A stretch of 64,000 nt of DNA from a virus. The notes beneath the pieces are model-generated. The model made no database searches, was not told the DNA's origin, and saw only the letters and a program-made list of their open reading frames with translations. Of this stretch, positions 3,061 to 31,400 are shown in pieces; the stretch's first letter is position 1; each line of letters starts with the position of its first letter. The translations under genes and the position numbers were made by a program. The stretch covers positions 110,668 through 174,667 of the IMG/VR virus record IMGVR_UViG_3300031951_000015; one strand, given 5' to 3'.

Positions 3061-4476
3061 TTATCTTAGTTGGTAACCATTGATTGTAAATCCATATTGA
3101 GCACCACTACTATCTCCTATTAAACCAGTGTTTCCTCCATTTGATCCGCTGATAACCATTGTAAACGAAGATATGGTTTTTATCTCTCCAAGATTTGTCT
3201 TTCCTTGATAATCTGGAGTGTAAATGTAGGGGAATTGAGTCCCAGATACATCGTTGATATAGAAATAACCAGGTTTTGGTGCTGTTGCTGGACCATTACC
3301 AGTAATCCAAGAAACTTTCAATGCCTGGGCACACATGGGTGTTGCCAAAGCAAATCTCCAAGCAATAGTTGTCCAACCAGATGATATTTCATAATATCCA
3401 CCAGCTAGATTAGTTGCACTCCCACCCCAAGCAGTAAATGGACCACCATTTATTGAATACGTTATACTACTACCAGGAATAGGTCCAGTTGCAGTGGTGC
3501 ATGATAGTGGTGAATCTGTTCCAGTTAGATAAGCAACAATAACTCTCCCAGATCCCCCACTACCTCCGGAACCGCCACCACCACCGCCACCAGATCCGGT
3601 GTTTGCAACTCCGTTACCACCGGTGCCGCCATGATTTCCTACGCCACCGCCACCAGATCCACCACTAGAACTTCCTACCCTAGATGCACCTCCGCCGCCG
3701 CCAGCAAAAAATTGAGAAGTTGGAGAGAAAAATGGAGTTGCGTTTAACCAAGAAATAGGTGTTGTAGGAAGACCTGCGCCACCAACACCAGGTTGATCTG
3801 GTTGTCCTTGGATTCCTGCCCCACCAGCACCTCCTCCTCCACCACCTCCGAACCCGGGACCCCCTGAAGAGGAGGGTCCACCTTGATTTCCCAATCCGAA
3901 GATATTAGAATTAGTGGGTAATGCTGGATTGTTAACTTGATTTAATGGAGATATTGAATTGCCATATGTTCCACCAGGAGAACCACCTTGAGTTGTAAGT
4001 GGACTTGGTGTGTAATTTAATCCTCTACCTCCCCCCTGAGCAACCCAATCAGGTCCAAAAGTTGAATTGCTACCATTTGAACCAGGTGAATTAGATAATG
4101 ATCCTGAACCTCCAGCACCTCCTCCTCCCACAACAACATCATATGATCCTGAGGTTAAAGTTAAAGGTGCAATTATTACACCACCCGCACCGCCACCAGC
4201 TTGTCCACCATCACCAGGAGGATTATAAGAACCGCCACCACCACCTCCAATCAGTAATATATATGCTGCTTTTGGACCTCCAGTGGTTACAAAAGGATTT
4301 GGACCAGAACTGGCAAAATCATGATATGTATAACTTCCTACCGTTGTTTTTGTTCCACCAGTTGCAGAAAAAGGTCCACCACCGACAGCACCACCAACAG
4401 GTGCTACATACCTCTTTCTTCCAAATCCGAAAGAAAATCCACCCCCACCACCAGTTCTTGATAAAATAGGACTCAT
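3061..4476 (-). CDS. Glycine-rich adhesin-like protein with C-terminal cap (471 aa)
   Basis: It starts MSPILSRTGGGGGFSFGFG, then a short globular part (YTYHDFASSG), then about 250 residues of poly-glycine runs separated by short loops, as in polyglycine-II sandwich tail-tip adhesins such as gp38 of phage S16. Unlike its paralogues it carries about 150 further residues after the glycine core (from TGTDSPLSCTT onward), with a Cys pair and ending GFTINGYQLR. The start overlaps the stop of the fibre gene upstream (ATGA). Likely role: host-receptor recognition at a fibre tip; inferred from composition and context. Confidence 0.72.
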   Translation of the reverse strand: MSPILSRTGGGGGFSFGFGRKRYVAPVGGAVGGGPFSATGGTKTTVGSYTYHDFASSGPNPFVTTGGPKAAYILLIGGGGGGSYNPPGDGGQAGGGAGGVIIAPLTLTSGSYDVVVGGGGAGGSGSLSNSPGSNGSNSTFGPDWVAQGGGRGLNYTPSPLTTQGGSPGGTYGNSISPLNQVNNPALPTNSNIFGLGNQGGPSSSGGPGFGGGGGGGAGGAGIQGQPDQPGVGGAGLPTTPISWLNATPFFSPTSQFFAGGGGGASRVGSSSGGSGGGGVGNHGGTGGNGVANTGSGGGGGGGSGGSGGSGRVIVAYLTGTDSPLSCTTATGPIPGSSITYSINGGPFTAWGGSATNLAGGYYEISSGWTTIAWRFALATPMCAQALKVSWITGNGPATAPKPGYFYINDVSGTQFPYIYTPDYQGKTNLGEIKTISSFTMVISGSNGGNTGLIGDSSGAQYGFTINGYQLR

Positions 4477-5378
4477 CTGTAACCTCCATTAACTACACCC
4501 ATCAAGTAATAATTTGCTGTTGTACTTGCAGAACCAACAGTATTAATACCAGTGAAACTATAAATATCCATTCCACTTGTAGTTGTTACACCAGAGATTG
4601 CATTTGCTAATGAACCACCAGCCCAACGAATGGTAGCATTAAATCCATTAAGAGTAACAGCAGTACAAGATCTTGCCGTGCCTGTCTGATTTACAAATAC
4701 ATTGAAAGTGATTGTATGACTATCAAAATCACTTGAAGTTGGAATGCCAACAACTGCGAGTGTAATATCTCCTGTTGGATTAGTTGTTAATCCAATGTTT
4801 GATGATGCTCCGTTGTAAGTTAAAGTAACTGTATTTCCATTTGTAATTATATGCTTTTCTGCAACACTGATAAATCTAGTTTCAGTAGTTGCCCAAGCAA
4901 CATTAGTTTCAAATCCTTTTTTAGTATTATTATAAGTTAGTGTTTTATTTGTTGTACCATAAATCTGAATACCATCACCATCTGCTTGTGCATCAGTTGT
5001 ATTTCCAGAACCAATGCCAACTAATGGATCTGTGATTTCTAAATTGGTTGTATTGATTATAGTTTGAGTACCATTTACAGTCAAATTTGTAAATGTTGCT
5101 GCCGATCCTGTGATATTTCCTACTGTAATATTTGGAGATCCAGAAAGTCCGGTAGCGTTGCCAGTTACATTACCTGTGAGGTTTCCAGTTACATTACCTG
5201 TGACATTACCAGATACATTGCCTGCGAGAGTTCCAGTTACATTACCAGTTACATCGCCAGTGAAACTAGTAGCAGTTACAACACCAGTGACACTAAACCC
5301 ATCGGCAATACCATTTGGAAATCTAGGTCCACCAGTTCCTAATCTATCAACAAGTTTATCAGCTCTAATCCTGGACAT
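4473..5378 (-). CDS. Tail fibre protein with TGNVTGN repeats (301 aa)
   Basis: The N-terminus MSRIRADKLVDRLGTGGP is shared with several other fibres here. It is followed by FPNG, VVTATSFTGDVTG and a run of TGNVTGN-type repeats typical of trimeric beta-helical fibres. The C-terminal 130 residues (from about 170) form a conserved domain ending GVVNGGYR, also found in the fibres at 9843, 21177 and 29832. The stop overlaps the start of the glycine-rich partner. Probably a gp37-like fibre shaft or tip. Confidence 0.75.
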   Translation of the reverse strand: MSRIRADKLVDRLGTGGPRFPNGIADGFSVTGVVTATSFTGDVTGNVTGTLAGNVSGNVTGNVTGNLTGNVTGNATGLSGSPNITVGNITGSAATFTNLTVNGTQTIINTTNLEITDPLVGIGSGNTTDAQADGDGIQIYGTTNKTLTYNNTKKGFETNVAWATTETRFISVAEKHIITNGNTVTLTYNGASSNIGLTTNPTGDITLAVVGIPTSSDFDSHTITFNVFVNQTGTARSCTAVTLNGFNATIRWAGGSLANAISGVTTTSGMDIYSFTGINTVGSASTTANYYLMGVVNGGYR

Positions 5379-5405
5379 TAAACTATCCTTCTACCAGTAT
5401 TATCT

Positions 5406-5480: not shown

Positions 5481-6389
5481 TTATATAGTATATCTAATAA
5501 TTACAATACCCGGACCTCCTGCGCCACCGACACCAGGAGGGTTCCAAGAATGTCCTCCTCCACCACCTCCAGTGTTTGGAGTTCCTGGACTTGCATCTCC
5601 AGGATCACCAAATCCATTACCACCACCCCCAGATCCACCCAGAGCAGCATCCGAATTATCTCCTGCGCCTCCACCACCACCAGCTCTTGTTATTGATGTT
5701 CCAGTAATACTTGATGTAACGCCATTTCCACCACGTCCACAAGTAGTTGGACCTGATGCATCAAAACCGGCCGTACCGGCACCACCTCCTCCACCAGCAG
5801 CTCTACCACTAGCAGATCCACCACGATATCCTTGATTTGAAGTTCCGGAACCATAATTAGATCCGGCGTCTCCACCAGCACCCCCACCAGATCCACCATT
5901 AAATCCTGAAACACCTGGATAAGCACCTCCACCACCTCCACCTGGTGAAGTGATAGTTGTAATATTAGGTCCCGAAATAGAAGAGGAATTCCCATTGCCG
6001 CCTCGTGTGGATTTATCTGTCGCTTTTATTCCCCCAGTTCCAACAGTAATGGTGTATGTAACACCAGCGGTAAATGTTGTTGTTGGTTCAGCAGACGCTC
6101 CACCACCAGAATTTTCACCCTGAACTGAAGATCTATAACCACCGGCACCGCCGCCGCCTCCCATACCACCACCACCAGCACCACCGCCACCAACAATAAT
6201 CCACTCTGCACTAACGGTATTAGATACTTGGAAATTATAATATGGTGCTGGTTGACCTACAACAAAGCTATGTATTTTCCAACTACCGAATGTAGTAATA
6301 TCACCACCAGAGGCGGAAAAAATACCACCACCAGAGGGTGCATCAACTCTACCAAACCCAAATGCTCTTCCAGTAAAAATCGGTGCCAT
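5481..6389 (-). CDS. Glycine-rich adhesin-like protein (302 aa)
   Basis: The N-terminal tag MAPIFTGRAFGFGRVD and a small globular region lead to AEWIIVGGGGAGGGG, where a long glycine-rich core begins. The protein closes with GGPGIVIIRYTI, the end signature of most of this family in the window. It lies four bases downstream of a fibre stop codon, so the pair is probably co-translated. The likely role is a gp38-type distal adhesin. Confidence 0.72.
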   Translation of the reverse strand: MAPIFTGRAFGFGRVDAPSGGGIFSASGGDITTFGSWKIHSFVVGQPAPYYNFQVSNTVSAEWIIVGGGGAGGGGMGGGGGAGGYRSSVQGENSGGGASAEPTTTFTAGVTYTITVGTGGIKATDKSTRGGNGNSSSISGPNITTITSPGGGGGGAYPGVSGFNGGSGGGAGGDAGSNYGSGTSNQGYRGGSASGRAAGGGGGAGTAGFDASGPTTCGRGGNGVTSSITGTSITRAGGGGGAGDNSDAALGGSGGGGNGFGDPGDASPGTPNTGGGGGGHSWNPPGVGGAGGPGIVIIRYTI

Positions 6390-6393: not shown

Positions 6394-7299
6394 TCAGACT
6401 CCTACGTTACCTTGTCTAAATCCCCCGTTCTTTGTTGCATAAACCTGGTAACTTGTTGCAGTTGTATTCGTACCTCCAGTATAATGCACAAAGAACGAAA
6501 CAAAATCTCTATCATTTGGAGTTGAAGATAGAGTTACAGTTGTTCCAGAACCAACTAATGCTCTGGTTGAGATACCAGCAACTGTTGCTCCATTTTCATA
6601 ACCAATCACAGTGCAGTTAATTCCAATACCAGTTGTTGCTGTTGTATTTCCAGTTCCTACTGGTGTTGATGACATCTGCGTAAAGATGCAAGTAATGGTT
6701 GTTCCATTTGCATTGCCAGTGAAGGCAGGCATATTCTTGAAAGAAACAATACCAATATTTGCACCAGTTGGAATAGTGTAAGTATATGTCGTTGCGTTTC
6801 TTACATCTAATTCAAGAACAAGATTGTTTCCACTATTATAAGTCGTCGCAGCAGCAACAGTTTCTAGAACACCCTTGAACTTATTAGGATCAGAATAAAC
6901 AAAAGAACTACTACCTCTTTCCCAAGTTAAAGTCTTATCTCCTCCTGCTCCACCAAAAATTGTTAGTCCACCACCATCTGCCGTTGTATTTGATGCAGAG
7001 GTTGTAGTTCCGATACCAATGTTCTTATCTTCTACTACCAGATTTACGGTATCAATAGTAGTAGTGGTTCCTTGAACTGTTAAGTCACCAGTTATCGTTG
7101 CGTTTCCAACAGTGATATTCGGAGTTCCAGTTAAACCCTGTGCATTGGTTGCAACTGATACAGTTCCTGTTACATTGCCAGTTAAATTTCCATCAAAACT
7201 AGTAGCAGTAATAACACCAGTAACGGTAGCACCATTAGGGAAATTAGGTGCGCCGCTACCCTCCCTATTACGAATACTATCAGCTCTAAGTATAGACAT
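6394..7299 (-). CDS. Tail fibre protein, second C-terminal class (301 aa)
   Basis: The N-terminal module MSILRADSIRNREGSGAP is followed by NFPNG and VITATSFDGNLTGNVTG. The distal part differs from the GGYR class: it has NLVVEDKNIGIGTT, ADGGGLTIFGG and a long domain ending in KNGGFRQGNVGV. The fibre at 26036 shares this distal domain. It is paired with the glycine-rich gene immediately downstream. Confidence 0.72.
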   Translation of the reverse strand: MSILRADSIRNREGSGAPNFPNGATVTGVITATSFDGNLTGNVTGTVSVATNAQGLTGTPNITVGNATITGDLTVQGTTTTIDTVNLVVEDKNIGIGTTTSASNTTADGGGLTIFGGAGGDKTLTWERGSSSFVYSDPNKFKGVLETVAAATTYNSGNNLVLELDVRNATTYTYTIPTGANIGIVSFKNMPAFTGNANGTTITCIFTQMSSTPVGTGNTTATTGIGINCTVIGYENGATVAGISTRALVGSGTTVTLSSTPNDRDFVSFFVHYTGGTNTTATSYQVYATKNGGFRQGNVGV

Positions 7300-7994: not shown

Positions 7995-8792
7995 CTACCT
8001 AATTAACAAATCAAATTCTAAACATCTATGGCATATTTGATCTGAAACATTTACTTTATATTTCCTTTTTCGAATACCCTTTGTGTCAATTTTGTGAAGA
8101 TTATTACCAAGAAAATTATCAGAGTATTCAACTCCATTAATATTTAACTGTTTTATTTTTTTATAGTTATGACTGTAATGAGGGATATTTAAAAAATCAT
8201 ATATTCTTTCCACTTCTTTTTGAGGATTGTTCACAAAATCATCATAGCCAATCAGTATATGAATATTATTTTGTGGATCTATTTTGTTAAGTGTATTGAT
8301 GGATAATATCTGCTGAACCAACTGCCCATGAGGATTAAAAATAAATTCAAATTTTTGTTCCACAGTTCCATTATTAGTATTTCTATTAATAAAGTTATTT
8401 GGATTTTTATCAGACCAGTCTACCCAAGATTTAAAAATATCAAGAGTATTTCTAACAAGACAAACTATTTTTATTTCATTTGGGCAATATTTTTGAAGTA
8501 AAGAAAAATTAGCAGGAGTTCCCCAAGCAGATCTATCAATAACATAATCAACATTCCATTTAGAATAATATGAAGATATTATACTTTCCATCACAGAATC
8601 ATAAGATTTTTCATCTGGAAAATTTTTATACGCTACATCAGTATCTTTCCAACTATCAAGTTTAAAAAGAATTTCTGATACTAAACTATTTCCAGATACA
8701 CCTATTTTTTTATTTTGATTTAAAATACATGACAAAATAGTGTTTCCTGCTCTCGGCATACCCGAAAGAAAATAATACTTTTTACAACTCAT
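7995..8792 (-). CDS. Sulfotransferase family protein
   Basis: Near the N-terminus YYFLSGMPRAGNTILSC matches the 5'-phosphosulfate-binding loop of PAPS-dependent sulfotransferases. Around residue 135 IVCLVRNTLDIFKSW matches the 3'-phosphate-binding region (Arg and Ser). YDDFVNNPQKEVERIYDFL is a typical late helix. The length (265) fits the family. It is the only obvious enzyme between fibre cassettes. It might sulfate a glycan on host surface or virion, but the acceptor cannot be read from sequence. It lacks a late motif nearby; a TATAAT-like box lies just upstream. Confidence 0.78.
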   Translation of the reverse strand: MSCKKYYFLSGMPRAGNTILSCILNQNKKIGVSGNSLVSEILFKLDSWKDTDVAYKNFPDEKSYDSVMESIISSYYSKWNVDYVIDRSAWGTPANFSLLQKYCPNEIKIVCLVRNTLDIFKSWVDWSDKNPNNFINRNTNNGTVEQKFEFIFNPHGQLVQQILSINTLNKIDPQNNIHILIGYDDFVNNPQKEVERIYDFLNIPHYSHNYKKIKQLNINGVEYSDNFLGNNLHKIDTKGIRKRKYKVNVSDQICHRCLEFDLLIR

Positions 8793-8824: not shown

Positions 8825-9841
8825 TTATGAAGGATATCTGACGATGACTATTCCTGCTCCACCATTTCCACCACCTGCGGGACCATTTGGATGTCTTCCA
8901 GCGCCACCACCACCAGTTCCATAAACTCCTGGATTTCCACTAGCTGAACCACCACCACCTAATCCACCAGCCCCTGTTCTATTTGTACCTGTGCTACTAT
9001 ATACACCTCCTCCTCCACCACCACCATAGTAACCTGATGCGCCTACGGCAGGAATAAAAGCAGGTTGTTCAGGAGCAGGTATTGCCGGTCCAATGATAGG
9101 TCCAGGAAAATCTCCAAATGCAACTCCAATACCACCATCACCACCACCAGGATCATTTCCAGGAGTAGAAACACCAGCTGCACCTGCGCCTCCACCGCCA
9201 GAAGTGCCATACCCACCAGTTGGAACAGAAAATCCACCAGGATTTCCATAGTCAGTTAATGCTGGATTAGTTCCTGGTTGTGTTGCCTGACCAGATGCAG
9301 GCGCTGGATCTCCTCCAGATGATCCACCACCAGATCCTCCTGGTTGTCCAAAATTATGACCGGGTCCAGCATCGTAATAATTGGATCCAGCTCCACCACC
9401 ACCTTTTGCCAGTACATAGTTTGGTTGACCAAATATTGGAACTCCGGGAGTTCCAAAGTAACTATTTCCACCAGGACTTCCCTGAGGAACTTGTGGAGCA
9501 ACTGCGACAGGACCATAACCCTTTGTGCCTGGTGCGCCAACTTGAACTGGATATATTCCAGCAGCTAAAGTTTTGGATGCACCATAAACAACACCGCCAG
9601 CTCCACCGCCAGCACCATAATAGTTACCACCTCCTCCACCACCAGCAACAACTAAAATATTGACAACCTTAGGAGATGGTAATGAAAAACTAGTAGAATT
9701 TGGATAAGTAAAAACATGATAAGTATACCCATTTCCTGGAGTTAATATTGTACCTCCAGTTGCCGAACCACCACTAGAAACAGCAGAAGAACTAAAACTC
9801 ATTCCGAGTTTGTCAGCAATTCTAGAAAGTAAAGGTGCCAT
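8825..9841 (-). CDS. Glycine-rich adhesin-like protein (338 aa)
   Basis: The N-terminal tag MAPLLSRIADKLGMSFSSS is followed by GGTILTPGNGYTYHVFTYP and VNILVVAGGGGGG, which opens the poly-glycine core. The end is GGAGIVIVRYPS. It starts one base after the stop of the fibre at 9843-10628. Antisense frames are open through this gene only because of its GGN codon composition. Confidence 0.72.
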   Translation of the reverse strand: MAPLLSRIADKLGMSFSSSAVSSGGSATGGTILTPGNGYTYHVFTYPNSTSFSLPSPKVVNILVVAGGGGGGNYYGAGGGAGGVVYGASKTLAAGIYPVQVGAPGTKGYGPVAVAPQVPQGSPGGNSYFGTPGVPIFGQPNYVLAKGGGGAGSNYYDAGPGHNFGQPGGSGGGSSGGDPAPASGQATQPGTNPALTDYGNPGGFSVPTGGYGTSGGGGAGAAGVSTPGNDPGGGDGGIGVAFGDFPGPIIGPAIPAPEQPAFIPAVGASGYYGGGGGGGVYSSTGTNRTGAGGLGGGGSASGNPGVYGTGGGGAGRHPNGPAGGGNGGAGIVIVRYPS

Positions 9842-9842: not shown

Positions 9843-10628
9843 TCAATAGAATCTATAATTTCCGTTTGCGCTTCCCGTGACAGTATAACTTGTTATAGCA
9901 CCATCACCGACAGTATCTATACCAACAAAGTTATAATAATCAATACAAGAAGTATTACCTGCGGATACAGTTCCAGATGCCCAACGAATTGTTCTTTGAG
10001 TTCCGTTGAAGAAAATACTGGAGCAAGCATATCCAGTTGAACCCTGATTTATAATTACCGTTAAACTAATTACTTTATTACTAAAATTAGTTGTGGGAAT
10101 ATTATTTACATGCAAGGAAATTGGACCAGATGGTGATCTTACAATTCCAATGTTTCCTTCTCCCGCACTAAAATCAATTGTTACTGATGTTGCAGTTCCT
10201 ACTTTAATCTCCTCTGCAACTGATTTAAATCTTGTCTCATCAGGAATTAGAGTTGTTAGGGTAGTGACTCCGGAATTAACCACAATACCACCAGCAGTAA
10301 CTCTAACACCAGTCCTTGCTGTGACTAACCCAACCGAGTCAATATTAGTTACGTCTTCATAAGTTAAAGTTCCACCTACCGAAACATTACCACTGAAAGT
10401 TGCAGTGGTTCCAGTTACATTTCCAACAGTAATATTGGGAGTTCCTGATAGTCCAGTAGCACTACCAGTTAGATTTCCACTAAAAGTCGTGGCGGTTACA
10501 ATGCCAGTGAGGTTAATACTACCAGCACCAGAGATCGTACCAGTGGAAGGAACTGTTGCACCATAGGTTAGTTCAGGTGCGCCAGTTGCATTTTTATTTA
10601 CTAGTTGATCCGATCTAAGCCTAGACAT
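9843..10628 (-). CDS. Tail fibre protein (261 aa)
   Basis: The N-terminal module MSRLRSDQLVNKNATGAP leads into GIVTATTFSGNLTGSATG and a linker YEDVTNIDSVGLVTARTGVR that also occurs in the fibre at 29832. The C-terminal domain belongs to the GGYR class, here ending GSANGNYRFY. It is paired with the glycine-rich gene downstream. Confidence 0.73.
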   Translation of the reverse strand: MSRLRSDQLVNKNATGAPELTYGATVPSTGTISGAGSINLTGIVTATTFSGNLTGSATGLSGTPNITVGNVTGTTATFSGNVSVGGTLTYEDVTNIDSVGLVTARTGVRVTAGGIVVNSGVTTLTTLIPDETRFKSVAEEIKVGTATSVTIDFSAGEGNIGIVRSPSGPISLHVNNIPTTNFSNKVISLTVIINQGSTGYACSSIFFNGTQRTIRWASGTVSAGNTSCIDYYNFVGIDTVGDGAITSYTVTGSANGNYRFY

Positions 10629-12220: not shown

Positions 12221-12229
12221 TTATTTATT
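12221..12229 (-). promoter_or_regulatory. T4-type late promoter motif
   Basis: AATAAATAA on the minus strand, 27 bases before the start at 12194. It contains the stop of the GIY-YIG gene. Confidence 0.6.
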
Positions 12230-12847
12230 GGTTTGTTTAGACCATCTTTTATTGGCAGCATCACTTAATTTTTTTCTTGTTTCCTCTGTAATATTGCAAA
12301 TACGTCCCAATACAAGTCCTTCAGATAGTTTTTCTTGAACTTTTATTCTCATTATTCTATGATTCTTTTTTGTTTTTGGGTCATACATCCAAACTAAATC
12401 CAGTTTTTTAAGTGTTTGTTTTCTTTTTATTGAACTTTCTTCTGTAAAAACTTGAAGTGCTCTTGCTCTTCTAATCTTCTCTCTTGCACTTTCATTTAGA
12501 AAAAATTTACCTTTTTTAACTTTACTCATTTTTTCTTTTGTTTCTTGAGATGTAACTGCACCCTCTCTCGTAAATTTAGTCGAAGTTTGTTTTGCCCTAT
12601 TAGCAAAATGTGAGTTAAGAGCAATATCATAAAAATTATGCAACTTTATTTCTGCACGAATTGCATCCTTTCTTGTTTTAAACGTTTCGATAATTACTTT
12701 TTGAGTGGGATTAAATGTTTTATCGTGAAATGATCCAAAATAGTTTATATCTTGTTCCGGTAAGCAATTGCAACTTCTACACCCAATATACCCCCTACCC
12801 CACTCTTCATAAGAATAATAGGTATAATGATACTTCTTATTAGACAT
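12221..12847 (-). CDS. GIY-YIG homing endonuclease
   Basis: Residues 6-22 (YHYTYYSYEEWGRGYIG) form a GIY-YIG-type first motif. CRSC follows, then GSFHDKTF and an Arg/Glu-containing helix (KTRKDAIRAEIKLH) fitting the nuclease fold. The C-terminal half has two copies of an EETKEKMSKVKKGK-like element (residues 100-120 and 185-200) resembling NUMOD3 DNA-binding repeats. It is free-standing between a fibre gene and a small structural gene. A late promoter lies in the loop of a long-range inverted repeat just upstream (12861-12926). Confidence 0.78.
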   Translation of the reverse strand: MSNKKYHYTYYSYEEWGRGYIGCRSCNCLPEQDINYFGSFHDKTFNPTQKVIIETFKTRKDAIRAEIKLHNFYDIALNSHFANRAKQTSTKFTREGAVTSQETKEKMSKVKKGKFFLNESAREKIRRARALQVFTEESSIKRKQTLKKLDLVWMYDPKTKKNHRIMRIKVQEKLSEGLVLGRICNITEETRKKLSDAANKRWSKQTNK

Positions 12848-15500: not shown

Positions 15501-15908
15501 TCAGATGTCTGTATCACCGAGAATTTGATAGTTGATAGCACTACCAATACCTGCTCCTCCAACCACGTTCGCTGGTTGTGTAACTTCTACAACAATCTTT
15601 TCTTGGTTTGTAAGAACCAGTGGATAGTTCATTTCAAAGAAGAAAGTTTCGTTTGCATTTAGATCTACTCTTGCCAATCTATATGCCGTCTGCCCAACAC
15701 CAGAAACCGTAACGCTACTTGGGTAAACGTAGAGTGATGAAGTAGCAGTTGAAAGTCCAGTGTTGTGCATTACCACACCACGAAGATAGGTGGTTGATGC
15801 AATACCAACACCACCAGCAGTTGCAGTGGTTCCTACAGTTAAAATACCTACTGTATTAATGCCAGTAACTGCCTGAATACCTAATAATTTAGTTCTTTTG
15901 AGTGCCAT
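15501..15908 (-). CDS. Small structural protein (135 aa)
   Basis: The sequence MALKRTKLLGIQAVTGINTV followed by LTVGTTATAGGVGIAST and SLYVYPSSVTVSG suggests a single beta-sandwich domain. It resembles the small fibre-locus proteins at 18134, 28030 and 36193, which share the hydrophobic beta pattern and a late NxxxFxE/LE element. It immediately precedes the double-module adhesin. Confidence 0.6.
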   Translation of the reverse strand: MALKRTKLLGIQAVTGINTVGILTVGTTATAGGVGIASTTYLRGVVMHNTGLSTATSSLYVYPSSVTVSGVGQTAYRLARVDLNANETFFFEMNYPLVLTNQEKIVVEVTQPANVVGGAGIGSAINYQILGDTDI

Positions 15909-15925: not shown

Positions 15926-15934
15926 GTTATTTAG
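15926..15934 (-). promoter_or_regulatory. T4-type late promoter motif
   Basis: CTAAATAAC on the minus strand, 18 bases before the start at 15908. It contains the TAA stop of the next upstream gene. Confidence 0.55.
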
Positions 15935-19291: not shown

Positions 19292-19300
19292 ATATTTATG
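19292..19300 (-). promoter_or_regulatory. T4-type late promoter motif
   Basis: CATAAATAT on the minus strand, 14 bases before the start at 19278; contains a stop codon. Confidence 0.6.
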
Positions 19301-22172: not shown

Positions 22173-22727
22173 TCAACTATTTATTGCTTGATGGTCTGGA
22201 AGTTTAGGAAGTAAATCAAACGCAATGATTGTTCTTTGTTTTCTCGATTGATTGGGATGAACGAAGTGTAAAGTATAAGAAGGAACAATAAACAGTGTTC
22301 CTTCTTTTACATCTTGTGGATGTGCAAGAGTTGTTGTATCAGTTCTCGGATCTTGCCAAGGTGCTACAAAGCAAGTAGGAGTATGATGTTTCGAATCATA
22401 CTCCACATAAAGAACACCAGAGAATCCCCAACTTTTATGGTTGTGAACTGTCTGATGATCTCCTTGTTTATATCTCACTGCCCAACAATCAGTCATACTA
22501 CAAGTTACTTGTGCTTCCTGACAGAACTCAAACAGTTGAGGTCTGATGAGGTCTTGGAAGTAATGTAGGTATGACTTTTTATTTGTTTGGCGATCAGTCT
22601 CAAAAGTTTGAAGAGTGGTTCTTACAAACTTTTGAGAGTTGATTCTGTTGAGAAGTCCACGGCGCTTAAAGTCCCAGTCGTCTATTTGGTATTGGTATGA
22701 TGGATATTCAAAGAGTGGTGCTTTCAT
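22173..22727 (-). CDS. 2OG-Fe(II) oxygenase-like protein
   Basis: The start at 22727 (MKAPLFEYPSYQY) is chosen because its ATG overlaps the stop of the upstream HNH gene (ATGA) and GGAG lies at suitable distance; the longer ORF needs a TTG start. The protein has DCWAVRYKQGDHQTVHNHKS with metal histidines, WGFSGVLYVEYD, and a distal HFVHPNQSRKQRTIIAFDL with His and Arg. This is a phage 2OG-Fe(II) oxygenase pattern related to the protein at 2456. Substrate unknown. Confidence 0.72.
   Translation of the reverse strand: MKAPLFEYPSYQYQIDDWDFKRRGLLNRINSQKFVRTTLQTFETDRQTNKKSYLHYFQDLIRPQLFEFCQEAQVTCSMTDCWAVRYKQGDHQTVHNHKSWGFSGVLYVEYDSKHHTPTCFVAPWQDPRTDTTTLAHPQDVKEGTLFIVPSYTLHFVHPNQSRKQRTIIAFDLLPKLPDHQAINS
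22177..22185 (-). promoter_or_regulatory. T4-type late promoter motif
   Basis: AATAAATAG on the minus strand, 20 bases before the start at 22157, inside the last codons of the oxygenase gene. Confidence 0.55.
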
Positions 22728-23515
22728 ACTGGCAATCTCCAACCACGATGATGATCTACTTCAAATCTTGATAATCTTTGCATCTGTCTTTTACTCAATC
22801 CAAAATCTTTACAATGTTCATCAATATCATCAACTTTTACAATATTATTATCTGGCGATAAGAAATAATAAGTTTTCAATCTTGCTTTTCGGCATAACTC
22901 CCTTTGCTCATCGCTCATAATCAAGTTTGGTCTAATCGTATTTGTTATTTTAGCAGTCCAACCTTTATAATGATTTCTCTTTCCCATACAAACATAACAC
23001 ATAGTAGGGTTGTGTAAGTTATGTTCTAAACAAAAACTTTTCAAACTTTGAGTAATATATTCTTTACCATTTGGATCTGTAATCAAATATTCATAAACAA
23101 ACTTTGTTTTTCGCATCTTATCAACGTGTTCTTTTTTGGATTTCACACCACGACACCTATCACCAACAGCATTACCAACTCTTATTTTTAATCCTTCATA
23201 AAGACGTGAGTTGCAATAATATTCTTTATCACCACTTTTATGATGATTCATTTTCCAAAAAGCGTGAGTCATCTTTATTGTTTTTGGATGCTTTTCTCCA
23301 TACCTTTTGATAAATGCTTTTTCTAATAGAGAGTGAGCAATATAATGTTCTCTGGCAGTCAAATATACAATCCTTTTGTTCCCTTCTGTTGTCTGCCCAT
23401 AAAGAGATCTTGGAAAAACGTGATGTCCTTCCACATACATTTTCACATTTCTTTTGTTGTAACCTCTTTTCTCTGCGTTTCGTATAAGGTTACAGTAAGT
23501 CCTTAGGTAGTTCAT
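22724..23515 (-). CDS. HNH homing endonuclease
   Basis: Residues 28-60 contain VEGHHVFPRSLYG and NKRIVYLTAREHYIAHSLL, a classic HNH pattern with paired histidines, Asn and the distal His. The C-terminal half has SLKSFCLEHNL and HYKGWTAKI plus LSKRQMQRLSRF and HHRGWRLPV, which look like two helix-turn-helix DNA-binding repeats of phage homing enzymes. It sits between two oxygenase genes and its stop overlaps the next start. A late promoter lies inside a long-range inverted repeat upstream (23527-23599). Confidence 0.8.
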   Translation of the reverse strand: MNYLRTYCNLIRNAEKRGYNKRNVKMYVEGHHVFPRSLYGQTTEGNKRIVYLTAREHYIAHSLLEKAFIKRYGEKHPKTIKMTHAFWKMNHHKSGDKEYYCNSRLYEGLKIRVGNAVGDRCRGVKSKKEHVDKMRKTKFVYEYLITDPNGKEYITQSLKSFCLEHNLHNPTMCYVCMGKRNHYKGWTAKITNTIRPNLIMSDEQRELCRKARLKTYYFLSPDNNIVKVDDIDEHCKDFGLSKRQMQRLSRFEVDHHRGWRLPV

Positions 23516-23617: not shown

Positions 23618-24346
23618 TCACCGGGCACGGTCCCAGGCGCAATGTGCCCTCTGCCCATCTTGTAACACGTAGTGAAAAAATATTTGATGGTAGTACAACT
23701 GTTCTTGATTTTTACCAAATAGTTTTTTACCTTTTCTATTAAGTCCTGGCATTGGATCACGCCAATGAGGTCTGGAACAACCTTTATAAACCATTCCATC
23801 ACCAGGTTTCAGAATCACTGAACGATTCTCACCAGGAACTAATACCTGTGTCTTCTTTTTATCTGCATAAGTATCTGGTGTTTTAATCCAGATCGGCCAG
23901 TCAGCATCTTCACCAGTTAGATTAGTGCTGATATGAACCGTTACAGAAATCTCACAAGCATCACGATCTGCGTGACGGGTAAGTTCTTGTCCTGGGAAAT
24001 AATAACGATCATAATAATAGGTATTATAAAGTTTACGTCCCAATACTTCTTCCAGTTTCATACGAATACCACAATGGATTTGGCGATATTGTGGATGCCA
24101 ATAACGAGCAAGAGAACCTTCAACTTGCATCTCAACTTCATGATGGGTGAACTGATCCATCTTTTTACCCCACCAGTTCAGTTGTCCACGCTCTTGTGGA
24201 ACTGGATGATAGAGTTCCTCAGGATTCCACAAGTCTTTAATAACTAGATATCCATTCTTTTCAAAGGATTCGTTGTGAGTCCAGGCAGTACCTGTATTCA
24301 TCCTTTCCTGCATCATCAGTTGCAGTTCTGTCATTTGTTCTGCCAT
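23618..24346 (-). CDS. 2OG-Fe(II) oxygenase superfamily protein (242 aa)
   Basis: The central part has YYYDRYYFPGQELTRHADRD, containing an H-x-D metal motif, then CEISVTVHIST, DWPIWIKTP, and a distal GDGMVYKGCSRPHWRDP where the second His and an Arg are expected. The topology fits a prolyl-hydroxylase-like 2OG enzyme. GAGG precedes the ATG. It is separated by eight bases from the next oxygenase upstream, so the two form an operon. Substrate unknown. Confidence 0.75.
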   Translation of the reverse strand: MAEQMTELQLMMQERMNTGTAWTHNESFEKNGYLVIKDLWNPEELYHPVPQERGQLNWWGKKMDQFTHHEVEMQVEGSLARYWHPQYRQIHCGIRMKLEEVLGRKLYNTYYYDRYYFPGQELTRHADRDACEISVTVHISTNLTGEDADWPIWIKTPDTYADKKKTQVLVPGENRSVILKPGDGMVYKGCSRPHWRDPMPGLNRKGKKLFGKNQEQLYYHQIFFHYVLQDGQRAHCAWDRAR

Positions 24347-24354: not shown

Positions 24355-24975
24355 TCACTTCCAGCGTTTGCCAACCGTCCATCCAACAAGGGATTTACGG
24401 GTTCCTTTCGTAACTTTAAGAACTCTGTGCTGTGTGCGAGAATCAAACAGGATTACAGTGCCACGCTTACGAGGTGCAATATAACTATTACCTGCTTCAT
24501 CAAGAAGTTGCAGGTTTCCACCTTCATAATCATCGGGGTCGCTCAACTGAACCACGAAAGAAAGTTTCCGTACAAGTTCAACATTCTCATTCAGGAAGTC
24601 TTGTGCAAGACCTTCTTGACGATTACCAACACTTACGGGTTTGTATTGAGTTGCAAGTCCTGCGTCATTATGCCAACCATAAAACTGTCCCTCTTCATAC
24701 TTTGTAAACTGCATTGATTCTCCATCAATACAGTGCAAGTCATAGAGGAAGTTCTCACGGTTTGCTCTTTGAATGTAATGCCATACGAATCCACCAACCC
24801 AATGTGTGGTAGGGATCCAAGCATTTTGTGAGTTTCGTTTATCTTTATTGAGTGCGTCTCCGTGCAGTCGGGAGTCCGCCATTTGCTCTTCGAACTTTTC
24901 TGTGAGATCTCGTTCGATAATATCTACTACGTCTTCTGGTAGATCACTGAAATACCAAATTGATTGAAATGCCAT
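24355..24975 (-). CDS. Prolyl 4-hydroxylase-like 2OG-Fe(II) oxygenase (206 aa)
   Basis: The catalytic core is the clearest of the four oxygenases here: FYGWHNDAGL carries H-x-D, LSFVVQLSDPDDYEGGNLQL follows, and GTVILFDSRTQHRVLKV plus GTRKSLVGWTVG carry the distal His and the 2-oxoglutarate Arg. This matches the PKHD/PiuC-like group. It is the first gene of an operon with a perfect sigma70 promoter. It could hydroxylate a host or phage protein; substrate unknown. Confidence 0.85.
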   Translation of the reverse strand: MAFQSIWYFSDLPEDVVDIIERDLTEKFEEQMADSRLHGDALNKDKRNSQNAWIPTTHWVGGFVWHYIQRANRENFLYDLHCIDGESMQFTKYEEGQFYGWHNDAGLATQYKPVSVGNRQEGLAQDFLNENVELVRKLSFVVQLSDPDDYEGGNLQLLDEAGNSYIAPRKRGTVILFDSRTQHRVLKVTKGTRKSLVGWTVGKRWK

Positions 24976-25044: not shown

Positions 25045-26022
25045 TTACTCATACGGATTTGCATAAGAAAATCTAGTATTAAATTTCGATGAATTCCAAG
25101 CATATGTTCCATTATATACTCCACGATCAGCAACCCCAACAGAAAAATTACTATTAATAGTTTGACCATAAGTATTGGTAGAATTTGCTCCCGATGTAGT
25201 AGTGGAAGCATCATTTCCTGTGCAGTTATAATTATTACAATTACTACCACCAGTATAATTACTACCATTCCAAGTTCCCAAGTGAACACAATAATAAGAA
25301 TCAGAAACTATTGCATCACTATTATCATAATGCATAGTAAATAAATCATTAGTTTGATCTCTAGCTCCTACATTTTGTATTGGATTTTGAGCGATTTTAG
25401 AACTGGCATTAACACTTCTAAAAACACAATTATAAAATCGACCCCTACTATTTGGAGCGTGAAATGCAGTCATATAATTAGTAGTTCTTGCAGTATCTCT
25501 AACTTTTTCTAATATAGCACCATAAATATCAGATCTAGTAGTAGAATCACCAGCACTGATGTGGTGATCACGACCAGCACCAGAATTTCTAGCTCTTAAG
25601 AGAGTTTGTCCTGGTGCAGCAATAACTCTAAAATAACTAGTACCATTATCAATGACACCAAGTTGACTAGTACTAGTATTCCAATCAATATAATGAAATC
25701 CTTTGATTACAATACATGAATTAGCAGCAAGTCCACTAGTGCCATCTACATTAAAAAGACTATAAAAAGTTCTTTTCGGTGCAGTAATAGAATTTCCAGA
25801 ATTAGCATCATTTCCAAATTCAGAATCAACATAAATCATAGTATACCCAGCACTAGCACTAGAACTAATCAAAGTTTGATATGCATTTGGAAAATCTGAA
25901 AGGGAAAGTGCTCCGGCGACAGGTGATGCAGCAGCAGCACTAGCCTTACCAAACCCAAAACCACCTACACCCCTTGTGATACCTGTAAAGACAGGTGATT
26001 CTTTTTTATGATGTTCAAACAT
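25045..26022 (-). CDS. Beta-helix-like tail tip protein replacing a glycine-rich adhesin (325 aa)
   Basis: The first 30 residues contain SPVFTGITRGVGGFGFGKA, closely resembling the tag of the glycine-rich adhesins (compare MAPIFTGRAFGFGRVD). The rest has no poly-glycine core. It reads as a solenoid: YVDSEFGNDANSGNSITAPK, IVIKGFHYIDWN and many Asn-rich turns (NCNNYNCTGND), as in pectate-lyase-like beta helices. It lies 13 bases behind a fibre gene, in the adhesin position. Probably an alternative receptor-binding or glycan-degrading tip. Confidence 0.65.
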   Translation of the reverse strand: MFEHHKKESPVFTGITRGVGGFGFGKASAAAASPVAGALSLSDFPNAYQTLISSSASAGYTMIYVDSEFGNDANSGNSITAPKRTFYSLFNVDGTSGLAANSCIVIKGFHYIDWNTSTSQLGVIDNGTSYFRVIAAPGQTLLRARNSGAGRDHHISAGDSTTRSDIYGAILEKVRDTARTTNYMTAFHAPNSRGRFYNCVFRSVNASSKIAQNPIQNVGARDQTNDLFTMHYDNSDAIVSDSYYCVHLGTWNGSNYTGGSNCNNYNCTGNDASTTTSGANSTNTYGQTINSNFSVGVADRGVYNGTYAWNSSKFNTRFSYANPYE

Positions 26023-26035: not shown

Positions 26036-26992
26036 TTAAGGTCTTAAACCACCATATCTAAAACTACCATTGTTCGTGGCAAGAACATTATAGTTTCCAA
26101 TTGTTCCAGTGCCACTTCCATTATAATGAATTGCAAAACTTACAATATCAATATCATTTGCAGTCGATGAAATTGTTATTGTTGATGCAGTAGCAACTCT
26201 TGCCGAAGTTGAGAATCCAGCAACATTATAAGGAGTAAGTCTAATATTAGTTCCAATACCAGTAGAACCAGTAGTATTACCAGTTCCAGTTGCGTTTTGT
26301 GTGAAGATAATCGTGAAGGTTGTTAAAGAGTTTTTTGTTGCAGGAAAGTCTCTTAATGAAACAATACCAACCTGCCCATTTGCAAGGTTATGAGTAAATA
26401 CAGTTCCGTTCTGGGCATCACATTCTAATATAATATTTGTAGTCCCAGCAATAGCAACGGTTGATGCAGTACTTACAGTTTCTACTGCACCCTTAATATC
26501 AACGGCATTACTGAACGCAAATGCATCAGAGTTGCTATTCCAAGTAAAAGTCTTATCTCCATCAGAACCACCAAAGATTGTCAGTCCAGCACCATCTGCG
26601 GTTGTATTAGATGGAGTTGACGTAGTTCCAATACCAATGTTCTTATCTTCTACTACTAAATTAACAGTATCAATTGTTGTTGTGGTTCCATTAACAGACA
26701 GATTTCCGCCAACAGTTAGATCATTAAGAGTTAATGTGCTAGTTACATTAAGATTAGAAGCAGTAATAACACCAGCAGTCGCATTAAGATTTCCAGTTAC
26801 TGTTAGGTTACCAGTGTTAGTAAAGTTTCCACTATTAGTAATATTACCAGAGTTAGTCAGGTTACCAGCATTCGTAATGCCACCGGTACTTGTAACAGAA
26901 ACAATACCCGTCACCGCAAGAGTATTAGTTTCTGGAACCGTTACAACCGATCCAGTTCTTGATTTAATATTGTCTACTCTTAATGTTGACAT
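26036..26992 (-). CDS. Tail fibre protein, second C-terminal class (318 aa)
   Basis: MSTLRVDNIKSRTGSVVTVP is followed by a repeat block (NSGNITNSGNFTNTGNLTVTG) and LTLNDLTVGGNLSVNG. The distal region NLVVEDKNIGIGTT, DGAGLTIFGGSDGDKTFTW and TFTIIFTQNATGTGNTTG is homologous to the fibre at 6394. The end is NNGSFRYGGLRP. It is paired with the beta-helix tip gene. Confidence 0.73.
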   Translation of the reverse strand: MSTLRVDNIKSRTGSVVTVPETNTLAVTGIVSVTSTGGITNAGNLTNSGNITNSGNFTNTGNLTVTGNLNATAGVITASNLNVTSTLTLNDLTVGGNLSVNGTTTTIDTVNLVVEDKNIGIGTTSTPSNTTADGAGLTIFGGSDGDKTFTWNSNSDAFAFSNAVDIKGAVETVSTASTVAIAGTTNIILECDAQNGTVFTHNLANGQVGIVSLRDFPATKNSLTTFTIIFTQNATGTGNTTGSTGIGTNIRLTPYNVAGFSTSARVATASTITISSTANDIDIVSFAIHYNGSGTGTIGNYNVLATNNGSFRYGGLRP

Positions 26993-27668: not shown

Positions 27669-28028
27669 CTAGAATAGACCAAGAACATTAGTTTTAACTG
27701 TGGTTCCAGCAGAAATATGTATTGTAGAACCTGCGGAAATTGTGATATTTTTTGCTCTCACAAAAGCAACATTTCCTTGTGCATCAGTTGCAGTTATAGT
27801 CTTTATACCACAACTTGCCCCACCAAGAGTGAGAGTTATTGGTGTTGCAAAAACCTGATTTAATCCACAGTCTTGTCCAACAGCATCAGCAAATCCACTT
27901 ACACCAGTTAAACTAGATCCATCGCCACTGAAAGATGTGGCGGTTATAATACCTGTGGAATTAATATTATTGACTTGATAATCTTCACCTGGTTTAATTA
28001 CACCTTGTGTAATTTTAGTGAGTGCCAT
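27669..28028 (-). CDS. Small fibre protein (119 aa)
   Basis: MALTKITQGVIKPGEDYQVN is followed by GIITATSFSGDGSSLTGVSG and a C-terminal beta cap (ITISAGSTIHISAGTTVKTN). The same order of start, TATSF module and cap recurs in neighbouring small genes. Likely virion component. Confidence 0.62.
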   Translation of the reverse strand: MALTKITQGVIKPGEDYQVNNINSTGIITATSFSGDGSSLTGVSGFADAVGQDCGLNQVFATPITLTLGGASCGIKTITATDAQGNVAFVRAKNITISAGSTIHISAGTTVKTNVLGLF

Positions 28029-28029: not shown

Positions 28030-28356
28030 TCAGGTCATCTCCAAAATAGTCAGAGCAACATCAAGACTATTATTTGTATCGCTAATAACCGTTAAGGTAT
28101 CCGTAGCTTCTAATACTACTTTATTTCCTTGCATAAACTCCAAAGAAGATCCTTGTGGAATCGGAACATTTTTAAGAAGTTTAATACTTTCTTGACTGAC
28201 TCTGCTGACTCCTACGCCAACATTAATGCCAGACCCAGATACATTAGCAAGCGTGATTCCGATTACTGTCGTGGTAGTCGCCGCAGGAACAGTATAAACC
28301 GAAACCGTAGTGACTCCTACGTTTGCCTTCGTTTTGAGTTTAAAAGTATTAGCCAT
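28030..28356 (-). CDS. Small structural protein (108 aa)
   Basis: MANTFKLKTKANVGVTTVSV followed by VYTVPAATTTTVIGITLANV, KLLKNVPIPQGSSLEFMQG and NKVVLEATDTLTVISD. The same pattern (TVGIYTAP, VKDLPIPANDSS, LILESGDSIQI) is present in the 109-residue protein at 36193, so they are paralogues. The beta-sandwich pattern is common in cyanophage virion proteins of unknown position. Confidence 0.65.
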   Translation of the reverse strand: MANTFKLKTKANVGVTTVSVYTVPAATTTTVIGITLANVSGSGINVGVGVSRVSQESIKLLKNVPIPQGSSLEFMQGNKVVLEATDTLTVISDTNNSLDVALTILEMT

Positions 28357-28361: not shown

Positions 28362-28994
28362 TCATCCGAATGCAATTGAGAGTCTAACTGCTTCATCGAG
28401 AATGTTGTTTCCACCAACTCTGATCGCTGTTGAACTATTTATATCTCCATTCACATCCAGTTTATACGCTGGTGCAGCACTTCCGATCCCCACAGAACCA
28501 GTTTGAGTATCATATACAAATCTATCAGTTTGAGTAGAAACTCCAATAATTGAAGTGCTTGCTCCACCAACAAAAGCAATATCCTGAATTCGTGGAGTAA
28601 ATACTGTTGATATACTTAAAGATCCACCACCAGAAGCAGAAGCAGCGGCAATTGCAGTAAAGTCAACAACAATTGTAGATCCATAACCAGTAATACTGAT
28701 TCCAGTTCCTACAAAATTAATATCAGTAAATCCAACACCAATTCTATTGGTAACAATTCCAGACTGTGGATTTACTTGATCAGATCCTACACCAACACCA
28801 GCAACAAATAACTGACCATTTTTATAAAGGTCACGTGTGAAGTTTATGTCACCATAAACGTCAAGTTTATATTGGGGATTGGTTGTTCCAATACCAACAT
28901 AGGGAGTCGCAGTTGTAGCAATTCCAATATTTCTGCTGGAATCATCTACACTTATAAATGAACCTAGTTGCGATAACTCCCTATTATTTGCCAT
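28362..28994 (-). CDS. Tail fibre protein with duplicated GIG/YKLDVNGDIN motif (210 aa)
   Basis: The motif YVGIGTTNPQYKLDVYGDIN near residue 35 recurs near residue 175 as VGIGSAAPAYKLDVNGDIN, an element widespread in tail fibres. Between them are GVGFTDINFVGTGISITGYG and a GGGSLSISTVFTPRI stretch. The end is GGNNILDEAVRLSIAFG. A fibre shaft role is inferred. Confidence 0.68.
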   Translation of the reverse strand: MANNRELSQLGSFISVDDSSRNIGIATTATPYVGIGTTNPQYKLDVYGDINFTRDLYKNGQLFVAGVGVGSDQVNPQSGIVTNRIGVGFTDINFVGTGISITGYGSTIVVDFTAIAAASASGGGSLSISTVFTPRIQDIAFVGGASTSIIGVSTQTDRFVYDTQTGSVGIGSAAPAYKLDVNGDINSSTAIRVGGNNILDEAVRLSIAFG

Positions 28995-29064: not shown

Positions 29065-29829
29065 TTATTCCAAATAAGTAACCTTTACCACAATTAACCC
29101 AGGTGATCCTGGACCACCAGGAGCACCACCAGAAGTATTACCATCATATTCTGCACCACCGCCACCGCCGCCACCACCAGCGCCATATCCAGTACCACCA
29201 GCACCACCTGTTCCACCATAACGAAATGCATTTCCACCAGCACTTGTAACTGTATATCCTGTTCCACCAGTTGTTCCAGATGTAGTTGGGATTGATGGTA
29301 AATTTTGTGCGGGTAAAGATCCATTTGATGAAAAATAAACTCCACCTGCTCCACCAATACCACCCTTTCCAGCAAATCCATCTCCTGGTGGAGATCCATC
29401 AGTACCTTTTGGATATGCAGTAATTGTGTAATCACTAAAAACATCTCTGACTGGTTGTGGAATTGTTAATAGAGTTCCACTTGGTCCAGGATTAGGTCCA
29501 GAAATTGGTGTTGGATAATTTGATCCCACGGATATAGGAACTGGACTAGATCCTGTTTGATTCAATAAAACGCTAACAAATCCACTCGATCCACCAGCAC
29601 CACCTTGTCCACCATTTGATGAGTATGATATTCCAGGTTGTCCTGCACTACCTCCACTACCAGCAGTAATACTAAAATAATCGACACTTTGCACCTGTGG
29701 AATAGATGCCAAGTCAAGAGTTCCTGGTGAAGTAAATTGAAAATATTTCTTTAACAGTCTACGTTGTGTTCTCTTTACAGGTTTTCCAATTCCTCTATTG
29801 AATCCAACTCTTGAAAATATTGGAGACAT
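29065..29829 (-). CDS. Short glycine-rich adhesin-like protein (254 aa)
   Basis: The tag MSPIFSRVGFNRGIGKPVKR is followed by a basic stretch (TQRRLLKKYFQF) and VDYFSITAGSGGSAGQPG, where a smaller glycine-rich core begins. The end is GSPGLIVVKVTYLE. It is the most divergent single-module member. It starts two bases after the fibre at 29832. Confidence 0.68.
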   Translation of the reverse strand: MSPIFSRVGFNRGIGKPVKRTQRRLLKKYFQFTSPGTLDLASIPQVQSVDYFSITAGSGGSAGQPGISYSSNGGQGGAGGSSGFVSVLLNQTGSSPVPISVGSNYPTPISGPNPGPSGTLLTIPQPVRDVFSDYTITAYPKGTDGSPPGDGFAGKGGIGGAGGVYFSSNGSLPAQNLPSIPTTSGTTGGTGYTVTSAGGNAFRYGGTGGAGGTGYGAGGGGGGGGAEYDGNTSGGAPGGPGSPGLIVVKVTYLE

Positions 29830-29831
29830 AA

Positions 29832-31400
29832 TTAACGATAACCTCCATTGACAACACCAAGAATATCATAGTTTGCAGTGCTGCTGGCAGATCCAATAGT
29901 GTTAATGCCGGTAAAACTATAAATGTCGTAACCACTTGTTGTCGTTACACCAGAAATAGATTCTAATAGAGATCCACCAAACCATTTAATTGTTTTTGAT
30001 ACACCGTTCAGTGTTATTGCAGTACAACTTCTTGCAACTCCAGTTTGATTTACAAAAACACTAAACGTAATAACGTGATTATCAAAATCAGAAGTTGTAG
30101 GAATACCTGTGACTGCTAATGTAATATTGCCAGTTGGATTGGTTGCAAATCCAATATTAGCGCCATTTGAATTATAAACTAAACTTACAGTGTTTCCATC
30201 TGCTCTTGTAAGTTTTTCGGCAACATTTACAAATCTCAATTCATTTGGAATGATTAATGAAGATCCACTAACTTCTAATACATGACCCATCAAGGAATGC
30301 ACTGTGCATTGATAATACAAAGAACTTGGTGTCGCTTCTGTTACAAATATTTCAGTGTATGCTCCTATACTTCCAGCAGTTCCGTTTGTAGTTACATTAG
30401 TTGAGTATAATGTATTTCTATTTGCATCCAAGTAAAATCTAAATGGGTGTCCAGAGTTTGAAGAGTCTGATTGATCAAAACGATAAGTTTTACCTGGAAG
30501 TAGTGTTAAAAATGGTGACTCTATACCATTCAAATAATATCCATTACCAGATCCACTTCCATAATAACGATGATTTGTTGTCTTCGAAGCAACCGTGACA
30601 GTATAAGTTAAAGTGGTTGAACTTGCCGCTCCAACCAAAGATTTATATCCTGATAGTTGTTCTGCTGTCGCAATGCCACTTACATTAATACTAGTGGATT
30701 GTATTTGAGTTAGTGTTGAAACACCAGAAGTTACAACCAATCCACCCGAATCAATTCTTACACCAGTTCTAGCAGTTACAAGTCCAATAGAATCAATATT
30801 TGTTACATCTTCATATGTCAATGTTCCAGCAATACTTACATTGCCACTGAAAGAAGCACTAGTAGCAGTTAAAAATCCAGAAACATTTAAATTATTTGTA
30901 GAAGTATCCCCTGTGATAGAAACCCCAGAACTAGTGGTTTCAATCTTTTTAGAATTATCATAATAAAGTTCTACTGATCCCCCACCTAGGAATCTTGCAA
31001 AAGTGTCATTTGTTGAGTGTTGTTTGAAATCAATATCAGATCCAGATACAATAAGAGATCCCGATCCAGTATCCTCAATATATGAGTTTGATCCATTATT
31101 ATAAATTCTTAAATCATTATTGTCGCCAATATTTAAATTATATCCGTTTCTAACTTGAACTGCACCATCAAATGTAGAAACACCAGTTACTCTTAAACTA
31201 GTTGCAGATACTGCTCCACCAACAACTGATGAAGATACACCACTAACATTAGCATATGTAGCAATTCCAGATGATGCAACAATCCCTGTTAGTTGACTTC
31301 CACTACCTACAAAAGAAGTTGCAGTTACAATTCCACCACTTATTGTGACGCCAGTTCCTACTTCGAGTCCATTTTTGACTCTAAAATTCTGATTAGCCAA
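29832..31400 (-). CDS. Tail fibre with cupredoxin-like domain (522 aa)
   Basis: The first half has long-fibre repeats (VVTSGVSTLTQIQSTSINVS, RIYNNGSNSYIEDTGSGSLI). Residues about 260-380 form an inserted domain with LNGIESPFLTLLPGKTYRFD, NSGHPFRFYLDANRN and LYYQCTVHSLMGHVLEV. The spacing of His and C-x2-H-x2-M resembles a type 1 copper (plastocyanin-like) site. The C-terminal 130 residues are the GGYR class fibre domain. The only in-frame start is TTG at 31400 with AGGGG upstream. Paired with the glycine-rich gene behind it. Confidence 0.72.
   Translation of the reverse strand: MANQNFRVKNGLEVGTGVTISGGIVTATSFVGSGSQLTGIVASSGIATYANVSGVSSSVVGGAVSATSLRVTGVSTFDGAVQVRNGYNLNIGDNNDLRIYNNGSNSYIEDTGSGSLIVSGSDIDFKQHSTNDTFARFLGGGSVELYYDNSKKIETTSSGVSITGDTSTNNLNVSGFLTATSASFSGNVSIAGTLTYEDVTNIDSIGLVTARTGVRIDSGGLVVTSGVSTLTQIQSTSINVSGIATAEQLSGYKSLVGAASSTTLTYTVTVASKTTNHRYYGSGSGNGYYLNGIESPFLTLLPGKTYRFDQSDSSNSGHPFRFYLDANRNTLYSTNVTTNGTAGSIGAYTEIFVTEATPSSLYYQCTVHSLMGHVLEVSGSSLIIPNELRFVNVAEKLTRADGNTVSLVYNSNGANIGFATNPTGNITLAVTGIPTTSDFDNHVITFSVFVNQTGVARSCTAITLNGVSKTIKWFGGSLLESISGVTTTSGYDIYSFTGINTIGSASSTANYDILGVVNGGYR

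Follow-up and report, generated by a model that had tools for sequence, protein, structure and literature searches.

The window analysed here, the last 64 kb (positions 110,668 to 174,667) of the 174,667-base IMG/VR record IMGVR_UViG_3300031951_000015, carries between 3 and 31 kb on its minus strand eight predicted tip genes, and all eight have a socket-like partner upstream, which is either the C-terminal domain of a repeat-rich fibre or a small separate adapter protein. The strongest signal in the array is this fibre C-terminal socket, which predicts the next gene, and not the N-terminus that the fibres share. We read the region, with a probability of about 0.78, as an old modular array of eight fibre-tip cassettes that exchange tips at a short N-terminal plug. 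Since the record carries gp23, the T4-type major capsid gene (E = 6.8e-154), as well as psbD at 39554 and psbA at 41364, both recognised from translations and from DNA similarity to annotated cyanophage genes, the source of the window is, judging from its gene content, an uncultured T4-like cyanophage. The genes of the cassettes are as follows, and each is called by its lower coordinate thereafter.

4473-5378, minus strand: class I fibre, socket at about 4473-4883, C-terminal domain sharing 72% identity with the one in 29832
3061-4476, minus strand: Gly-rich tip (27% Gly), class I plug MSPILSR, PF21722 at 61.6 bits, overlapping the fibre stop
6394-7299, minus strand: class II fibre, socket at about 6394-6873, PHROG 36132
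5481-6389, minus strand: Gly-rich tip (33% Gly), class II plug MAPIFTGRAFGFG, PF21722 at 59.9 bits
9843-10628, minus strand: class I fibre, socket at about 9843-10250, 41% identical to the 4473 socket
8825-9841, minus strand: Gly-rich tip (30% Gly), class I plug MAPLLSR, PF21722 at 47.6 bits
21177-21869, minus strand: class I fibre, socket at about 21177-21608
19296-21173, minus strand: two-domain Gly-rich tip (33% Gly), plug MAPIVTSLASIVKQFGIG, PF21722 at 96 bits in two stretches
26036-26992, minus strand: class II fibre, socket at about 26036-26515
25045-26022, minus strand: tip with class II plug FTGITRGVGGFGFG and an exchanged, non-Gly body (10% Gly), no Pfam or PHROG match
29832-31400, minus strand: class I fibre without the common N-terminal foot, socket at about 29832-30242
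29065-29829, minus strand: Gly-rich tip (24% Gly), class I plug MSPIFSR, no Pfam match
15931-16554, minus strand: class III fibre ending in ELDAALFN, an [LMV]Fx end typical upstream of class III adapters
15501-15908, minus strand: class III adapter of 135 aa, PHROG 20100, with a tip-like gene next to it in relatives
13494-15485, minus strand: two-domain Gly-rich tip (30% Gly), class III plug MGARSS...DGHLLEYFR, PF21722 at 110 bits, ortholog in the phage Bellamy
18527-18991, minus strand: class III fibre ending in TYNHLFS
18134-18508, minus strand: divergent class III adapter of 124 aa, 23% identical to 15501
16999-18105, minus strand: Gly-rich tip (28% Gly) behind the 18134 adapter with a gap of 28 nt, PF21722 at 37.8 bits

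The eight tip open reading frames (ORFs) had been singled out by an earlier sequence-only reading of this DNA, and all of them were recovered on the minus strand at exactly these coordinates with intact reading frames. The seven Gly-rich ORFs contain 24-33% Gly with poly-G runs of up to 8, and all but 29065 exceed the curated cut-off of PF21722 (Gly_rich_2; 24.3 bits), with two such domains each in 13494 and 19296. In the Pfam search, 29065 reached no model, and 25045, which has no poly-G run, did not reach the PF21722 cut-off. The six fibre-tip pairs named in that reading do adjoin closely (fibre stop to tip start -4, 4, 1, 3, 13 and 2 nt, in the order of the list), and this gene order, together with the socket-plug match described below, supports paired cassettes. 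Alignment of the six fibres that precede these tips revealed a C-terminal domain common to all of them. The class I sockets (in 4473, 9843, 21177 and 29832) are 36-72% identical to each other by blastp, and the two class II sockets (in 6394 and 26036) are 51% identical over the whole alignment. The partner count rises from six to eight because tips 13494 and 16999 each follow a small separate gene (15501 and 18134) for a class III adapter of about 130 aa. Class III adapter genes also lie ahead of Gly-rich genes in Bellamy and in IMG/VR contigs, and the adapter gene itself comes after a short fibre whose last residues are ELDAALFN, TYNHLFS or a comparable peptide. 18134 scores 110 bits against the adapter profile, although it is itself among the sequences of that profile.

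The sequence-only reading had emphasised an N-terminal module shared by the fibres. Of the six fibres, five have this foot (4473, 6394, 9843, 21177 and, in weaker form, 26036), and 29832 lacks it. Since it also occurs inside 7331 and in Bellamy fibres that precede class III adapters, the foot does not predict a tip. The shared C-terminal domain of the fibres, the separate adapter gene and a class-matched N-terminal peptide on the tips are additions to that reading.

Loci of relatives were retrieved from IMG/VR with socket profiles and near-identical copies were then removed, giving 155 non-redundant cassettes (56 class I, 44 class II and 55 class III; for classes I and II only sockets above 100 bits) from IMG/VR and one cultured phage, Bellamy (MF351863). 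In 153 of these 155 (55/56, 44/44 and 54/55 for classes I, II and III), no more than 30 nt separate the socket stop from the start of the next gene, and across the sampled cassettes the class of the plug tracks the class of the socket. The motif F[TS]G lies within the first 22 aa of 41 of 44 class II tips, compared with 1 of 56 class I tips (Fisher p = 2.6e-23 for class II against class I) and 1 of 55 class III tips. Among cassettes that were absent when the motif was first noticed, it was found in 22 of 25 class II (>100 bits) versus 0 of 14 class I, and the background of P.F[TS]G was 4 in 1,521 ORFs. Class I plugs mostly start with M[AS]P[ILF]xSR. For class III, the ORF upstream of the adapter ends in [LMV]Fx in 52 of 55 cases, against 167 of 6198 in the background.

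Behind sockets that are 80-97% identical, the tip bodies vary between Gly-rich, laminin-G-like lectin and other types, some of the non-Gly bodies being Laminin_G_3 lectins. Among pairs whose sockets share 80% identity or more, a switch between Gly and non-Gly bodies occurs in 5 of 37, 24 of 64 and 25 of 187, and the class I tree requires at least nine such changes. For example, socket identity is 90-95% and plug identity 64-69% among the loci L064 and L059 and the window's 6394, yet the bodies behind them belong to no known Pfam family, are laminin-G-like and are Gly-rich, respectively. The exchanged tip that had been proposed at 25045 is supported by a class II plug, FTGITRGVGGFGFG, on a non-Gly body; this plug is common to Gly-rich tips of Bellamy, L071 and L074, and the corresponding Bellamy gene joins the plug FTGISRGLGGFGFG to a Gly-rich body. 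These exchanges show socket and plug kept as a unit, with the remainder of the tip changing.

The same exchanges bear on an alternative in which the genes behind the fibres encode assembly chaperones of the fibre, comparable to T4 gp38 or Pam3 gp25, which leave once assembly is complete instead of staying on the virion as tips. T4 gp38 does occupy the same gene position and acts as a chaperone (PMC6851490, PMC6957217), and 16999 and 19296 have weak PHROG matches to 'tail fiber assembly'. However, a chaperone should co-vary with its fibre, and here the plug alone does so; the bodies, with lectin-like or Gly-rich receptor-binding folds, differ between near-identical sockets. We therefore hold the chaperone explanation to be improbable.

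Several observations weigh against a modular array with exchangeable tips. Nine class II orthologs (sockets 64-95% and plugs 50-86% identical) speak for exchange, as their bodies lack blastp similarity in 36 of 36 pairs, but low-complexity masking was applied in that comparison and conceals any resemblance of one Gly-rich body to another. For class I, the plug motif is loosely defined and varies with the choice of start codons, and the cassettes share descent, so the counts above are not independent events. The pattern is broken at L048, where the next gene is 67 nt away and the plug is absent, and L163, L186 and L181 have variant plugs. At L055 and L060, two loci of dataset 3300049043, the plug is intact but the tip behind it is cut short by an early stop or a frameshift, which reflects either sequencing error or inactivated tips. 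The evidence consists of genes and single-chain models; the model of the 5481 tip is only moderately confident on its Gly-rich sequence, and the plug (residues 1-24) has a predicted local distance difference test (pLDDT) score below 50 as a monomer.

With these points included, we still favour the modular array, in which each repeat-rich fibre would bear a distal socket, as its C-terminal domain in classes I and II or as a separate adapter protein in class III. Each fibre trimer would end in such a socket, where the plug of the co-translated tip, its first ~15-30 residues and specific for the class, could dock. The body behind the plug would bind the receptor and could be a Gly-rich TNF-like/Gly-rich domain, a laminin-G-type lectin or another fold; bodies would pass from phage to phage by exchange at the junction of plug and body, with the socket retained. 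Such tips would be incorporated into the virion, and several might be displayed together. The docking step is supported by the T-even phages, in which the compatibility of gp38 resides in its N-terminal part: gp38 docks via its N-terminal domain (PMC6851490), and PP01 gp38 works with T2 gp37 only after exchange of its N-terminal 113 aa for the T2 residues (PMC12892980). A bolder version, which we regard as doubtful, is that the three socket-plug interfaces are mutually specific and work as a tool-changer, so that many folds with the right plug of ~20 residues would load on the matching fibre and one virion could carry up to eight tips without cross-loading.

The tip-like role that had been proposed for the Gly-rich proteins gains support from the fold predicted for one of their bodies, that of 5481. 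Its AlphaFold model (14 aligned sequences, predicted TM-score (pTM) 0.80, mean pLDDT 76.5) contains no helix of four or more residues. The best Foldseek match is the Bxb1 tail tip (9d93 chains Qa/Qb; E 9.5e-6, overall TM-score 0.36-0.46), followed by the Pam3 gp24 fibre (7ypx; E 3.5e-5, probability 1.00, TM 0.42/0.50) and, more weakly, TNF-like/Gly-rich domains of ALK and LTK. The polyglycine-II sandwich of gp38 type that had been suggested for these proteins is not borne out by these matches, as S16 gp38 is absent among the matches listed for this model and S16 has no PF21722 match. Because Pam3 gp24 has been likened to S16 gp38 as well as to ALK (PMC9608196), the Gly-rich tips and S16 gp38 may nevertheless be alike in mode of use despite the different predicted fold. 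The class I socket was modelled as a beta-rich domain (pLDDT 87.6) with no match in the Protein Data Bank (PDB) at E <= 0.001. Among predicted viral proteins it had 87 matches at this threshold, including tail fibres of the Synechococcus phages S-H38 and S-SM2; no comparable pair was seen behind one S-SM2 fibre or behind S-MbCM6 and S-H9-1 genes of the fibre region, none of which is confirmed as a socket-matched protein. Sequence searches of the PDB with a Gly-rich tip, two socket profiles and 25045 returned nothing meaningful, and tblastn with a Gly-rich tip gave no match, as expected under low-complexity filtering.

The order of the cassettes had been taken as serial duplication of a two-gene unit. 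Recent tandem duplication of one cassette of a fibre and a gp38-type adhesin in this phage would account for many cassettes in a row and for the recognisable paralogs 6394/26036 and 4473/29832. However, DNA similarity between cassettes is local only (at best 83% over 156 nt and 70% over 407 nt), and the similarity that exists is old and patchy. On a class I socket tree of 41 rows, the four class I sockets of the window need four separate placements: 4473 is 90% identical to L012, 29832 is 79% identical to L023 (with L017 as sister), 21177 is 97% identical to its ortholog in L059, and 9843 forms a long lone branch. Bellamy has a similar array of six Gly-rich genes, of which two follow class II sockets and four follow class III adapters, interspersed with oxygenase-like genes similar to the window's set, and the tip fold is unlike gp38. 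PF21722 has one to three matches each in Syn9, P-SSM2, S-SSM7 and the pelagiphage HTVC008M and none in T4, S16 or the freshwater Synechococcus phages S-SRM01, DSL-LC02, DSL-LC03 and S-CRM01. Given the scattered class I sockets, the Bellamy array and this distribution, recent duplication in one genome is very improbable, and the sequence comparisons indicate that the array is old and common to a subset of T4-like cyanophages. It would have been assembled from independently kept cassettes, which recur in many uncultured relatives and one cultured phage.

Such an array could also be a reservoir, in which one or few cassettes are expressed or loaded and the remainder is silent stock for recombination; this would be compatible with the modular array. 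All class I/II fibres except 29832 have the common foot and could compete for one site. We nevertheless consider a reservoir unlikely, given eight intact frames, a different arrangement in class III, orthologous cassettes kept separately across phages and the lack of a reverse transcriptase in the record, which also ruled out a diversity-generating retroelement.

Phages with several receptor-binding proteins, with variable fibre clusters or with gp38-like tips that can be swapped are already known. As in the gp37-gp38 system of T-even phages (T2/S16/PP01), a tip gene lies beside the distal fibre gene, a short N-terminal part attaches to the fibre end and sets compatibility, and the receptor part varies (PMC6851490, PMC12892980). 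The window differs in having eight cassettes, three socket classes, differing body folds and a much shorter plug: the attachment domain of T-even gp38 consists of three Trp-tipped helices (PMC6851490), whereas plugs here have ~15-30 aa and those of classes I and II are Trp-free. The window's tips have no sequence match to gp38, a central beta-helix with a polyglycine-II sandwich, and no fold match as judged from the 5481 Foldseek matches. Pam3 gp24 (7ypx) shares with the 5481 model a TNF-like and Gly-rich receptor-binding domain. Its single chain holds both a baseplate-docking helix and the receptor domain, and the chaperone, gp25, is a protein of its own (PMC9608196), whereas fibre and tip are separate genes here, and its N-terminal alpha-helical docking domain has no counterpart in the 5481 model, where residues 1-24 are of low confidence. 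Bxb1, whose tail-tip protein is the best fold match, is a mycobacteriophage and thus a different virus type. In Ackermannviridae, the branched tail-spike complex likewise brings several receptor-binding proteins with modular, conserved attachment parts to one phage (PMC11414711), but each tail-spike carries its attachment domain at its own N-terminus.

The sequence-only reading had contrasted the array with a single gp37/gp38 pair, which holds for the T-evens. It does not extend to T4-like cyanophages and pelagiphages, which have a multi-fibre host recognition cluster (PMC7029224), or to Bellamy with its six Gly-rich genes. That cluster, which is placed between VrlC and gp14, is likewise a large variable region of the structural module with several fibres, and the parts of its description consulted contain no two- or three-gene cassettes, sockets or plugs (PMC7029224). 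A single phage that combines three socket classes, plugs to match and interchangeable bodies with unrelated folds was not found described in the open literature searched; the main gp38 modularity survey (Trojet et al. 2011) lies outside that literature.

No socket relatives were found in GTDB genomes. Among 50,697 phage records, the class I socket has no relative, and the class II socket and the 15501-type adapter occur only in Bellamy, the only cultured phage found with either; standard annotation would therefore miss the sockets. A 2010 review spoke of 'missing' tail fibre proteins (PMC2984593), and receptor-binding proteins are unassigned in most T4-like cyanophages. A socket profile flags the neighbouring tip gene whatever its fold. 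The plug-socket correspondence predicts binding within a class only, and could explain how a phage has many tips without misassembly. Sockets I and II are possibly related by profile comparison (hhalign probability 69, E 4.6e-5), and the idea that the class III adapter is a detached class I/II socket was ruled out, there being no profile similarity.

Further genes were noted at 28362-28994, 28030-28356, 27669-28028 and 36193-36522. The small proteins of 28030-28356 and 36193-36522 are relatives (29%, E 5e-8) and possibly additional adapters; 28030 likewise comes after a fibre, one ending in ...AFG, but no tip gene comes after it.

Among the cassettes lie genes for 2OG-Fe(II) oxygenases at 2456-3019 and 22173-22742 (both PF13759) and at 24355-24975 (PF13640), with 23618-24346, which has no Pfam match, beside them; the Bellamy genes 13967, 14596 and 15330 (L009) are closely similar. 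These enzymes might hydroxylate residues of the Gly/Pro-rich tips. A sulfotransferase-family gene (7995-8792, PF13469) between two cassettes is a possible tip- or glycan-modifying enzyme. Likely homing-endonuclease genes are 12221-12847 (sub-threshold NUMOD3 match), 22724-23515 (sub-threshold I-HmuI NUMOD-like match) and, as judged by eye, 38453-38824 (HNH-like) and 40795-41310 (LAGLIDADG-like). Finally, 44820-59804 has DNA similarity to the sugar-nucleotide/glycosyltransferase block of S-SRM01 (GDP-mannose dehydratase, fucose synthase and fucosyltransferases), and such a block is also present in other phage host recognition regions.

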